Positions 1 to 37,238 of a DNA stretch of 39,912 bases are shown here, one piece after another. A program made the translations under genes and the position numbers. The stretch's first letter is position 1; each line of letters begins with the position of its first letter. Origin of the DNA: Bacillota bacterium (GTDB lineage: Bacteria; Bacillota; DTU025); assembly GCA_019136685.1 (NCBI GenBank), contig JAGVTS010000241.1:1-39912 (forward strand), given 5' to 3'. The notes beneath the pieces were generated by a model. It was not told where the DNA came from, ran no database searches, and worked only from the letters and a program-made list of their open reading frames with translations.

Positions 1-158
1 GCATTCAGCACTCCGGCGGTTATGGTCATGTGCTCCTCAGAGGATGTGGAGAAGGTGTATCTGCCGGGCTCCATTACTCCAACGGTGGCATTCACGCCGT
101 CGACCACCAGTGCGAGGCTCTGAACTCGCCCGTTGAAGTAGCTGTTGTGCTTCAACAT
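1..158 (-). CDS. ppnP: Pyrimidine/purine nucleoside phosphorylase PpnP, N-terminal part (cut by window edge)
   Basis: The minus-strand reading from the ATG at 158 gives about 52 residues before the window ends. It contains NSYFNGRV, then GVMEPGRYTFST and EEHMTITAGVLN. These match my recollection of the start of the small single-cupin PpnP/YaiE (DUF1255) family: an N-x-Y-F-x-G-x-V opening, G-V-M-x-x-G-x-Y-x-F, and E-x-M-x-x-x-x-G. PpnP phosphorolyses nucleosides to free base and ribose-1-phosphate in the cytosol. An AAGGAGG ribosome site lies just upstream on the minus strand (plus-strand tcctcctt near 162-170), which supports this start. The gene diverges from the GntR operon. The family is normally about 95 residues, so roughly half is missing here because of the window edge and not because of decay. 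Confidence 0.88.
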   Translation of the reverse strand, partial: MLKHNSYFNGRVQSLALVVDGVNATVGVMEPGRYTFSTSSEEHMTITAGVLN

Positions 159-34017: not shown

Positions 34018-34515
34018 ATGTCAAAGATAATCGGCACGTTCTCGTCGCGCGATTCCGCTGAGTCGTGCATTCACGAGCTGCGCAACTCCGGCTTCGACAA
34101 TAACCGCATATCCCTAGTGGCAAAAGGCGATGGGGCACAGGCGCAGGGGCGAGGCGATCGAGGTGGGGGCGCCGCTACGATGGGTATGGGCGGAGGCGCG
34201 GCCACGGGTGTCACAGCCGGGGGGGTGCTTGGCGGAGTTGCCGGCCTGCTGGCCGGGCTGGGCGCGCTCACGATTCCGGGGCTTGGGCCGATTGTAGCTG
34301 CAGGACCCATTGCGGCCACTCTCACCGGCGCTGTGGGCGGCGGGCTCGTCGGTGGCCTGGTGGATATGGGAATTCCTCAGGAAAGAAGCCAGTACTTCGA
34401 GAGCAAGGTGCGTGAGGGCCGCATCCTTGCTGTGGTCGACGCGGATTCCGACAAGGTGGACAAAGCTGCGCGCACCATGCGCGATTTCGGCGCCTCAGAC
34501 GTAGAGACCCACTGA
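34018..34515 (+). CDS. YflT/GSP17M-like stress protein with glycine-zipper helices
   Basis: A 165-residue protein. Residues 4-38 (IIGTFSSRDSAESCIHELRN, GFDNNRISLVAK) match the general-stress-protein 17M (YflT) N-terminal domain. The centre (about 50-120) is nearly all Gly/Ala with G-x-x-x-G spacing and hydrophobic runs (LGGVAGLLAGLGALTIPGLG), a glycine-zipper hairpin likely to sit in or on the membrane. The C-terminal 40 residues (YFESKVREGRILAVVDADSD) repeat the alpha/beta pattern of the family. AAGGAGG precedes the ATG. In Bacillus, relatives respond to general stress; the exact function is unknown. A 14-bp hairpin follows the gene. Confidence 0.85.
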   Translation: MSKIIGTFSSRDSAESCIHELRNSGFDNNRISLVAKGDGAQAQGRGDRGGGAATMGMGGGAATGVTAGGVLGGVAGLLAGLGALTIPGLGPIVAAGPIAATLTGAVGGGLVGGLVDMGIPQERSQYFESKVREGRILAVVDADSDKVDKAARTMRDFGASDVETH

Positions 34516-34534: not shown

Positions 34535-34573
34535 GGCTCGCCGGCGGCAAGGCAATATGGCCGCCGGCGAGCC
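34535..34573 (+). terminator. Perfect 14-bp GC hairpin after the stress-protein gene
   Basis: GGCTCGCCGGCGGC (34535-34548) pairs at every base with GCCGCCGGCGAGCC (34560-34573) around an 11-base loop. CGATTGG follows, with no T-tract. It lies 20 bases after one gene and 94 bases before dapB, so it would separate the two transcripts. Confidence 0.7.
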
Positions 34574-34667: not shown

Positions 34668-35456
34668 ATGGATGACGGGATAAGGGTGCTGGTAACAGGG
34701 GCTGCCGGTAGGATGGGCCGTGAAGTGGTGAAGGCGGTGTGCGGCGCCGATGGGCTTGCCCTTGCGGGCGCGGTTGATATCGCGCTGGTCGGGCAGGACG
34801 CCGGCAACGTTGCCGGCATCGGATCAATCGGCATCCCCATTCGTGCTGATCTCGAAGCGGCTTTACGTGACTTGCGACCGGATGTGATGGTGGACTTCAC
34901 CATAGCCCGGGTTGCACAGGCCAACATCATGATCGCCATCGATCACGGAGTTCGCTTCGTCGTCGGCACATCCGGGATGGGGTCGGAGGCAGTGGAGGCC
35001 ATACTGCATAAGGCGGCTGTACGCGGCGCGGCAGGCGCCATAGTGCCCAACTTCGCGCTAGGCGCAGTCTTGATGATGCGATTCGCGCGGGCTGCCGCCA
35101 AGTACCTTCCGGACTGCGAGATTATAGAGCTTCACCACGACGGCAAGATCGACTTTCCTTCGGGCACTGCTAAAGCCACAGCCCACGAAGTGGCCTCGGC
35201 CCGCGGTGACGCCGTTGGGCATGCGCGCGGCCTCGGAACTCGCGGGGTTGAGATAGAGGGGGTGCCCGTTCATTCGGTGCGCCTGCCGGGCCTAGTTGCC
35301 CACCAGGAGGTGATATTTGGCGGTCCTGGGCAGACGCTGACCATCCGCCACGACTCGCTGGGCAGAGACTCATTCATGCCCGGAGTGCTTATGGCTATTA
35401 GGAAGGCCGTGAGCCTAGATCGAGTGGTTCTGGGCCTCGACCCGCTGCTGGACTGA
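34668..35456 (+). CDS. dapB: 4-hydroxy-tetrahydrodipicolinate reductase
   Basis: A 262-residue cytosolic enzyme of the diaminopimelate/lysine pathway. It reduces the DapA product to tetrahydrodipicolinate with NAD(P)H. The nucleotide-binding loop is VTGAAGRMGRE (9-19); VVGTSGM follows near 98-104; and the active-site segment ELHHDGKIDFPSGTAKA (154-170) has both histidines and the Lys. The ATG at 34668 has GGGAGG (34653-34658) 9 bases upstream. It lies directly before dpaB, in the place where dpaA is found in Bacillus. The same DapA product feeds both lysine synthesis and dipicolinate, so this gene sits at the branch point. Confidence 0.96.
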   Translation: MDDGIRVLVTGAAGRMGREVVKAVCGADGLALAGAVDIALVGQDAGNVAGIGSIGIPIRADLEAALRDLRPDVMVDFTIARVAQANIMIAIDHGVRFVVGTSGMGSEAVEAILHKAAVRGAAGAIVPNFALGAVLMMRFARAAAKYLPDCEIIELHHDGKIDFPSGTAKATAHEVASARGDAVGHARGLGTRGVEIEGVPVHSVRLPGLVAHQEVIFGGPGQTLTIRHDSLGRDSFMPGVLMAIRKAVSLDRVVLGLDPLLD

Positions 35457-35467
35457 TCAGCCGTCCA

Positions 35468-35511
35468 GACACCTCCCTGTGCCATCGGCCATATACTGCA
35501 TGGGAGGTGTC
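35468..35511 (+). promoter_or_regulatory. Hairpin that would mask the dpaB ribosome site
   Basis: GACACCTCCC (35468-35477) is perfectly complementary to GGGAGGTGTC (35502-35511), with a 24-base loop. The downstream arm includes the whole GGGAGG ribosome site of dpaB (35502-35507) and ends 2 bases before its ATG. In the mRNA this would hide the site. Confidence 0.65.
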
Positions 35512-35513
35512 AC

Positions 35514-36110
35514 ATGATGAGCCTCGAAGGGAAAACCATCGGGGTGGCCTTGACCGGTTCGCATTGCACAATACCGGAAGTGCTTCCCCAGATCGAAGCG
35601 CTGATCGAACGGGGGGCCTCAGTTATTCCGGTACTCTCGTATTCGGTGGCTCACACCGATACGCGTTTCGGCCGCGCCCAGGACATACGGCAGAAGCTGG
35701 AGGAGATGACGGGGGCGGAGGTGATCGACACCATCTCCAAGGCCGAACCTATCGGCCCCAAGCGACTGCTGGACTGCCTGGTAATCGCCCCATGCACAGG
35801 CAACACCCTGTCCAAATTGGCACTGGGCATCACTGACACTCCGGTGCTGATGGCCGCCAAGGCGCAGTTGCGCAACGGCAGGGCCCTGGTCATCGGTATT
35901 GCCACCAACGACGGGCTGTCGGGATCAGCCCGGAACATCGCCACTCTGCTTGCACGCAAGAACGTGTATTTTATTCCATACGGGCAGGATGACCCGAAAG
36001 GCAAGCCTACATCGCTGGTAGCAAGGATGTGCGATACCGAGAGGACAATAGAAGAGGCTCTGGCTGGGAAGCAGGTTCAGCCCTTGCTGGTTGAGAAATG
36101 GAAAGACTAG
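35514..36110 (+). CDS. dpaB: Dipicolinate synthase subunit B (flavoprotein-like)
   Basis: A 198-residue protein, the normal size for SpoVFB. Recognisable segments are KTIGVALTGSHCTIPEVLPQ at the start, AEPIGPKRLLDCLVIAPCTG, and NTLSKLALGITDTPVLMAAK, then YFIPYGQDDPKGKPTSLVA. This is the flavoprotein (HFCD) fold. With DpaA it oxidises the DapA product to dipicolinate, made in the mother cell and stored in the spore core. The ATG at 35514 is 6 bases after GGGAGG; an ATG at 35517 is also possible. No dpaA is present in the window. A separate 111-base gap precedes asd. Confidence 0.95.
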   Translation: MMSLEGKTIGVALTGSHCTIPEVLPQIEALIERGASVIPVLSYSVAHTDTRFGRAQDIRQKLEEMTGAEVIDTISKAEPIGPKRLLDCLVIAPCTGNTLSKLALGITDTPVLMAAKAQLRNGRALVIGIATNDGLSGSARNIATLLARKNVYFIPYGQDDPKGKPTSLVARMCDTERTIEEALAGKQVQPLLVEKWKD

Positions 36111-36221: not shown

Positions 36222-37238
36222 ATGCTTAACGTAGCAGTGGTGGGTGCGACCGGCGCCGTGGGGCAGGAGATGATCTCGGCCATATTCGAGCTTGGATTGC
36301 CGGTGGATGACCTGATACTGGCGTCGTCCGAGAGGTCGGCAGGTCGGGTAGTGTCGACGCCGCGGGGCGACATCGAGGTGCGCGAAGCTACACCCGAGCT
36401 TTTCGACGGCGTGGATGTGGCGTTTTTTGCAGCTGGAGGGAGTGTGAGCCTAGCGCTGGCGCCGGAGGCGGCACGCCGCGGCACGCTGGTGATCGACAAC
36501 TCCAGCGCTTTCCGAATGGATCCTGACGTACCCCTTGTCGTTCCGGAGGTCAATATCGAGGCGGCCCGCAGCCACAAGGGGATTATTGCCAACCCCAACT
36601 GTTCTACTATAATCGCCATCGTGCCGGTGGCGCCTATCTACCGGCGGTGGGGGATGGAGCGGATGATTGTCTCCACGTACCAGGCGGTATCGGGGGCAGG
36701 CCATGAGGCCATGGAGGCACTTACAGTCGAGAGCCGTGCAGTGCTGGCCGGCAAGGTTCCTGAGCCGTCGGTGCTGCCCGTCAAGTCTGCCAGGGTGCAT
36801 CATCAGATCGCATTCAACCTAATCCCGCATGTAGACTCGTTTGGTCCCGATGGCTACACTCGCGAAGAACACAAGATGACCGACGAGACCCGAAAGATAC
36901 TGGGCGACCCCACACTTCGCATAAGCTCGACCACGGTCCGAGTGCCTGTGTACCGCTCGCACTCTGAGTCGATAAACCTGCAAACACGCGAGCACGCCCC
37001 CATCGAAGAAGTGCGCGAGCTTCTGTCGACCGCTCCCGGGGTCAAGGTCGTCGACGACCCGGAGAACTTCGCGTATCCGATGCCCGTACACACCTCCGGC
37101 ACTGACGACATTCAGGTGGGTCGGCTACGTGAAGACCCTTCGGCGCCCAACGCGATGTGGCTATGGGTTGCCGGAGATCAGCTCAGAAAGGGCGCGGCGT
37201 CCAACGCGGTTCAGATCGCTGTGGCACTTTACAAGTAG
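36222..37238 (+). CDS. asd: Aspartate-semialdehyde dehydrogenase
   Basis: A 338-residue cytosolic enzyme that reduces aspartyl phosphate to aspartate semialdehyde with NADPH. The N-terminal VVGATGAVGQE is the nucleotide loop; the catalytic cysteine is C127 in ANPNCSTI; the substrate loop YQAVSGAGHEAMEAL follows; and RVPVYRSHSESIN holds the second catalytic His/Arg segment. The ATG at 36222 follows GGGGAG (36206-36211) by 10 bases. The next gene, dapG, starts 14 bases after its stop, so the two are co-transcribed. A slightly AT-rich stretch before it (36176-36200) shows no clear promoter. Confidence 0.97.
   Translation: MLNVAVVGATGAVGQEMISAIFELGLPVDDLILASSERSAGRVVSTPRGDIEVREATPELFDGVDVAFFAAGGSVSLALAPEAARRGTLVIDNSSAFRMDPDVPLVVPEVNIEAARSHKGIIANPNCSTIIAIVPVAPIYRRWGMERMIVSTYQAVSGAGHEAMEALTVESRAVLAGKVPEPSVLPVKSARVHHQIAFNLIPHVDSFGPDGYTREEHKMTDETRKILGDPTLRISSTTVRVPVYRSHSESINLQTREHAPIEEVRELLSTAPGVKVVDDPENFAYPMPVHTSGTDDIQVGRLREDPSAPNAMWLWVAGDQLRKGAASNAVQIAVALYK

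Follow-up and report, generated by a model that had tools for sequence, protein, structure and literature searches.

Dipicolinate synthase draws on an intermediate from which lysine and peptidoglycan are also made, and the dpa genes that encode it lie among dap genes required in growth. We analysed a locus in the window (the whole stretch of 39,912 nucleotides, from a Bacillota bacterium), where dapB, dpaB, asd, an aspartokinase gene and dapA are consecutive on one strand, the last three being growth-phase lysine/DAP genes that form the downstream part of the dapB-dpaB cluster. The first-pass annotation had proposed that in mRNA reading through from dapB a hairpin covers the ribosome site of dpaB, and we consider it probable that dipicolinate synthase is under a read-through latch formed by this element. 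The features concerned are the following.

34668 to 35456, forward strand: dapB, 4-hydroxy-tetrahydrodipicolinate reductase (NCBIfam TIGR00036, 238 bits against a cut-off of 122)
35468 to 35477, forward strand: first arm of the hairpin (anti-SD box), GACACCTCCC, overlapping the -35 region (ACACC) of a local promoter
35490 to 35497, forward strand: -10 element CATATACT of a SigmaE/SigmaK-type promoter, in the hairpin loop, 16 nt past ACACC
35502 to 35511, forward strand: second arm, GGGAGGTGTC, including the dpaB Shine-Dalgarno (SD) sequence GGAGG (35503-35507)
35514 to 36110, forward strand: dpaB, dipicolinate synthase subunit B, 198 aa
36222 to 39453, forward strand: asd, dapG-type aspartokinase gene and dapA (NCBIfam TIGR01296, NF006068 and TIGR00674)

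The upstream gene dapB is the presumed source of read-through mRNA, and the identity of dpaB rests on NCBIfam NF006161 (E 4.7e-89) and TIGR02852, both above their cut-offs; its start reads ATGATG, which makes 35514 and 35517 both possible. Directly upstream of dapB, a glycine-rich protein of 165 aa (MSKIIGTFSSRDSAESC..., 34018-34515) is conserved in several class members and had no match in the NCBIfam search, and between its gene and dapB lies a perfect 14-bp hairpin, GGCTCGCCGGCGGC/GCCGCCGGCGAGCC (34535-34573), with no T-run after it. Within the asd coding region, TTGCCA-16-TATAAT (36586-36613) matches a Sigma-70-like promoter at 11 of 12 positions; it is a possible internal promoter for aspartokinase and dapA and could be a chance match (2 found, 1.8 expected).

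The two arms are 10 nt each, 100% complementary and separated by a 24-nt loop, and they form the sole inverted repeat of at least 8 nt between 35380 and 35600. The first begins about 11-12 nt after the dapB stop (35456); the second consists of GGGAGG plus TGTC and is followed by AC and the dpaB ATG at 35514, so the coordinates confirm the earlier description of a perfect 10-bp stem that takes in the ribosome site and four more bases and ends 2 bases short of the ATG. The best SD helix at dpaB stood out from dinucleotide shuffles (p = 0.016), and the calculated energy for opening GGAGG was 11.5 kcal/mol in the read-through transcript, compared with 5.5 +/- 2.3 after shuffling of the upstream sequence (3 of 400 shuffles were as high) and with 1.9-5.6 kcal/mol in local transcripts. 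In duplex energy between SD and upstream sequence, dpaB ranked 8th among 703 genes with an SD, taken from 1.18 Mb of the window genome and three related genomes. Taken as a whole, the 91-nt segment has an unexceptional global minimum energy (z -1.22, 22/200), so that single-sequence folding is only suggestive and not decisive, and the strong evidence for the predicted hairpin is comparative. Two familiar kinds of element were rejected at this site. An intrinsic terminator does not fit, as the stem is followed by ACATGATGAGC, without a T-run, and is absent from the terminator scan, which listed no terminator-like site between dapB and dpaB; for a known riboswitch or other cis-regulatory RNA, Rfam gave no hit, whether over the window or, with E values up to 1 allowed, over 35380-35600.

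The -10 in the loop of this hairpin belongs to a putative promoter, ACACC-N16-CATATACT, which by motif carries the AC in the -35, the CATA-type -10 and the spacing of a SigmaK promoter. According to PMC3789822, SigmaK promoters have AC at -35, the -10 is common to SigmaE and SigmaK, and dpaAB is driven by SigmaK in C. difficile and B. subtilis. The CATATACT promoter therefore appears to be SigmaK-type, with SigmaE also possible because of the shared -10, and the window genome encodes sigK (TIGR02846, 326 bits against a cut-off of 298.65). Since arm 1 overlaps the -35, transcripts from the local promoter, whose predicted start lies downstream of that arm, should lack it, and both arms would be present only in read-through from dapB. 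The -10 is kept as CATATACT or CATATATT in all eight dpaB loci of the class. It lies 28-65 nt before GGAGG in six of them, where the SD falls well within the predicted local transcript, and only 13 nt before it in the window genome and its congener (G000 and G001), which makes the predicted start (about 35502-35505) coincide with the SD or fall inside it; the local leader in these two genomes would be about 9-12 nt long and part of the SD might be missing. Box and promoter together are uncommon: exact ACMCC-N15/17-CATATACTG occurs once only in the window genome, and GCACCTCC plus spacer plus CATAT occurs 0-5 times per genome in other genomes, the matches with a fixed 13-nt spacer including the dpaA promoter in many of them. 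As both patterns are rare, the box does not belong to promoters in general, and its interpretation as a general SigmaK -35 extension was rejected.

These observations suggest a mechanism in which the region between dapB and the dpa gene or genes holds a SigmaK-type promoter overlapped by an anti-SD segment. During growth, RNA running in from dapB would carry the segment, whose pairing with the dpa SD would keep ribosomes out; once the mother cell has active SigmaK, transcription would start downstream of the segment and give an mRNA without it, in which the SD is free. The growth-phase read-through, the drop in translation and the start downstream of the arm are steps that we infer. Among the opening routes considered in the first-pass annotation, a shorter sporulation transcript without the first arm is favoured, because the SigmaK-type promoter overlaps that arm, while a ligand found no evidence and no Rfam match. 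In most families with the putative latch, dpaA lies in between, and the -35 box would pair with the dpaB SD over ~950 nt and the -35/-10 spacer with the nearby dpaA SD; in the window's class, where dpaA is found at another place in the genome, dpaB would have its latch as a local hairpin.

Within this class we compared 12 genomes, 8 of which have dpaB. Complementarity between promoter core and SD was present in 8/8 of these genes, weakly in one (G002/L005), and arm 1 corresponds to CAGACACCTCC in three loci (L003, L004, L006) and in position to ACAAGCACCTCC in the dpaA promoters of other families. The arms are GACACCTCCAT/ATGGAGGTGTC in G007 (11 bp), ACACCTCCAT/ATGGAGGTGT in G006 (10 bp), AGACACCTCC/GGAGGTGTCT in G008 (10 bp) and GGTACCTTC/GGAGGTGCC in G004, with more pairs beyond one bulge and a similar arrangement in G005 (the arms compared for covariation in these two being GGTACCTT(C)/GGAGGTGCC), and dpaB of G001 has 12 pairs with one bulge. 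Loops vary among the loci, and the tenth pair of the stem covaries, C-G in the window genome and A-U in G006 and G007. The canonical arm is absent from G002 dpaB (z 1.4), which has only a shifted, wobble-rich alternative. When relatives were checked for loss of pairing with drifting arms, which the first-pass annotation had named as the contrary outcome, pairing was clearly weakened in one of eight class members and was not detected in a minority of other families. No dpaB match was present in G003 or in G009, G010 and G011, which belong to the same order (family f3). In family f3 no full-length match to dpaA was present either, and dipicolinate may not be made there; G003 has dpaA, and its missing dpaB may reflect assembly gaps.

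The gene dpaA is absent at the dapB-dpaB locus and is placed elsewhere in this class (G000:C63, locus L031, in the window genome, with 297 bits to the DpaA model, a good match yet under the curated cut-off). These unlinked genes have an SD-covering arm of their own around their own -10 in G000, G001, G002 and G004 (L031, L121, L123, L126) and none in G003, G006 and G007. The helices of G004 (13 bp, perfect; TCCCCCTCCTTCA/TGAAGGAGGGGGA, the strongest of these arms) and G002 (14 bp, one G.U) beat all 703 background genes and are stronger still than the dpaB helices, and dpaA ranks first among 703 in G001 and in the top 4% in G000. The same arrangement was observed elsewhere in the window genome, at L211:19097-19139 (G000:C3:60097-60139), where CCTCCTGCA...TGCAGGAGG flank CATACAATG and the second arm includes the SD; its counterpart in G001 (L157, C55) has GCAGGGGG on the SD side and keeps the pairing through one G.U. 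We take the gene to be YlmC/YmxH-like, and by its arms it looks like a second unlinked case of the latch design. Genome-wide, the pattern CCTYC..CATANNNT..GGAGG showed little excess over a reversed control (8 against 6 in the window genome, both unlinked dpa genes being among the 8), and for this reason the latch is not widespread in simple pattern form. Two strong matches in the genome sample with CATA in the loop, L180 and L214, were set aside, as they look like ordinary intrinsic terminators.

In many other Bacillota the gene order is dapB-dpaA-dpaB. The dpaA promoter is there typically ACAAGCACCTCC-N12/13-CATATATTG, with ACAAGCACCTCC in the -35 region, and the dpaB SD GGAGGTGCTT, ~950 nt downstream, is the reverse complement of ACAAGCACCTCC, with pairing that runs to 13-16 bp. 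Examples of this long-range pair are CAAACAAGCACCT/AGGTGCTTGTTTG (L301), CATGACAAGCACC/GGTGCTTGTCATG (L028) and GTGACAAGCACC/GGTGCTTGTCAC (L338) and, with one G.U each, TCTGCACCTTCTTTA/TAAAGGAGGTGCAGA (L356), AAACAAGCACTTCC/GGAGGTGCTTGTTT (L331) and CCGCACCTCCC/GGGGGGTGCGG (L268); further pairing with the dpaB SD was found in L030. At L096 (family f71) a second element, GCAGCACCTCCGTTAAG, upstream of the dpaA box, outpairs the -35 box with the dpaB SD (GCACCTCCGT/ACGGAGGTGC). No clear dpaB pairing was seen in several families (e.g. f80, f50, f94, f6 and f49), and in Paenibacillus loci a box was not evident, while a hairpin resembling a terminator often precedes the dpaA promoter. It also weighs against the latch that long-range pairing must withstand ribosomes finishing dpaA beside the dpaB SD.

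The complementarity was evaluated by permutation, which only approximates phylogeny, with the -10 of dpaB upstream regions located independently of the box and GTDB Paenibacillus loci excluded. The initial energy permutation (z -7) was open to GC-content bias and was therefore repeated GC-matched and by clade. Across 72 GTDB families, the cognate duplex energy was -18.96 compared with -16.70 for GC-matched partners of other families (z -6.3, 0/4000), and the unbroken Watson-Crick run that includes the CACC/GGTG anchor was 6.93 compared with 6.20 in 47 families (z 4.3, 0/4000). With one locus per dpaA-protein clade, the dpaB SD gave z -5.7/-5.1/-4.0/-3.4 in 57/47/33/27 clades; the dpaA SD, tested against the same promoter segment, gave z -5.2 in 66 families and z -4.4/-4.0/-3.4/-3.4 for these clade sets, and its helix lay closer to the -10 more often. 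The signal is specific to that segment, which lies over the promoter, as control segments just upstream and downstream of it gave none (z 0.27, -1.0, -0.33), and pairing is stronger where dapB lies upstream (48 against 24 families, p 0.0016). In a fixed 12-bp register across 41 families, two-sided compensated cells numbered 25 compared with 14.1 +/- 3.2 in shuffles (0/500), and pairing reached 77% compared with 37-49% when the register was slid; over all anchored loci, flank positions alone gave a modest signal (z 2.2). Compensating changes in relatives, put forward earlier as a check on the stem, are thus present both within the class and across families. Base pairing of the anti-SD segment with the dpa SD appears well supported, and the earlier claim that dapB read-through mRNA would hide the dpaB ribosome site gains comparative support from the recurrent pairing, the compensating changes, the variable -10 to SD distance (13-65 nt) and the long-range form elsewhere.

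The same data bear on the possibility that the box is conserved only as DNA, as a SigmaK -35 and perhaps a site where an activator or repressor specific to dpa binds, and that the SD is kept for its ribosome-binding role alone, the complementarity being a by-product of CACC resembling the -35 and GGTG the SD. The box lies exactly over the -35, the near-invariant CACC/GGTG explains 4-5 pairs without selection on RNA, and core positions +4..6 show no cognate excess (z 0.1). However, in families and in clades alike, cognate partners pair better than GC-matched non-cognate ones, changes compensate on both sides, pairing extends beyond both core motifs (e.g. L356, L301, L338 and L272) and, weakly, G.U is preferred over C.A at family level (p 0.027), so that we judge this explanation unlikely. 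That the 3' end of the dapB transcript acts instead as a trans antisense RNA against dpaB and dpaA mRNA seems to us very unlikely: the same complementarity would suffice and the arm begins 12 nt past the dapB stop codon, but a perfect local hairpin exists in cis at dpaB, no terminator-like site is listed between dapB and dpaB, and pairing in cis should have the advantage. SD-covering stems are the usual output of riboswitch-like or autoregulatory leaders, and a leader controlled by a ligand or protein is nevertheless highly improbable here, given the lack of Rfam matches noted above, loops of variable length made mainly of promoter sequence, and a partner arm that can be ~950 nt off. A chance inverted repeat or decayed terminator, compatible with the ordinary segment energy (z -1.22), can hardly be credited when no T-run follows the stem, few shuffles or other genes have the SD hidden to this degree, the pairing recurs across families and the covariation tests disfavour it.

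If the read-through latch is true, one cluster would serve growth and sporulation without a terminator, as the SigmaK transcript would be translatable and the read-through silent, and selectable long-range pairing across a whole gene is predicted. More tentatively, and with rather more doubt than confidence, we suggest that anti-SD latches in sporulation promoters could be a general device for sporulation genes behind growth genes, in which, in much of the Bacillota, read-through RNA would have both dpaA and dpaB (the latter over ~950 nt) silenced by one promoter-overlapping segment of ~25 nt, and similar latches would guard others, such as the YlmC/YmxH-like gene of the window genome.

Related arrangements are known. 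In phage T4, long early transcripts of gene e (lysozyme), soc, 49 and I-TevI sequester the SD by folding, and a late promoter just upstream gives transcripts that lack the 5' strand of the helix and are well translated; translation from the long gene e transcript was measured to be ~100-fold lower (PMC3014915, PMC2988022). As in gene e, the dpaB SD would be taken up in a helix when transcription has begun further upstream, here according to folding and comparison, and a local stage-specific promoter whose transcript omits the 5' strand is present by motif. Unlike the T4 cases, dpa is an operon for sporulation of a cell and has a promoter of SigmaK type, its arm reaches a second cistron ~950 nt away in many families while the same segment pairs with the SD of the first, and its effect is predicted whereas that on gene e was measured. 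In B. subtilis, a large hairpin has been proposed to block translation of sigG in read-through from PspoIIG and cannot form in PsigG transcripts (PMC5942855). That case shares with ours a sporulation gene and a blocking hairpin confined to read-through; it concerns another gene and sigma factor, the forespore and not the mother cell, and a local hairpin of 20+ bp (PMC5942855), whereas the dpa latch involves metabolic enzymes behind a lysine/DAP gene, covariation across families and long-range pairing. The SigmaK-driven dpaA-dpaB (spoVF) operon has the same genes and promoter class and, in the passages of PMC3789822 consulted, is described at the transcriptional level only. A limited literature search, with subscription journals mostly outside it, found no paper describing a dpa latch. 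The mechanism is of a known kind; what appears to be new is the set of genes concerned, the wide recurrence among spore formers, an overlap with the promoter that is accompanied by covariation, and pairing that spans an entire cistron. The latch, if true, would extend the T4 mechanism and the sigG proposal to a core operon of spore metabolism.
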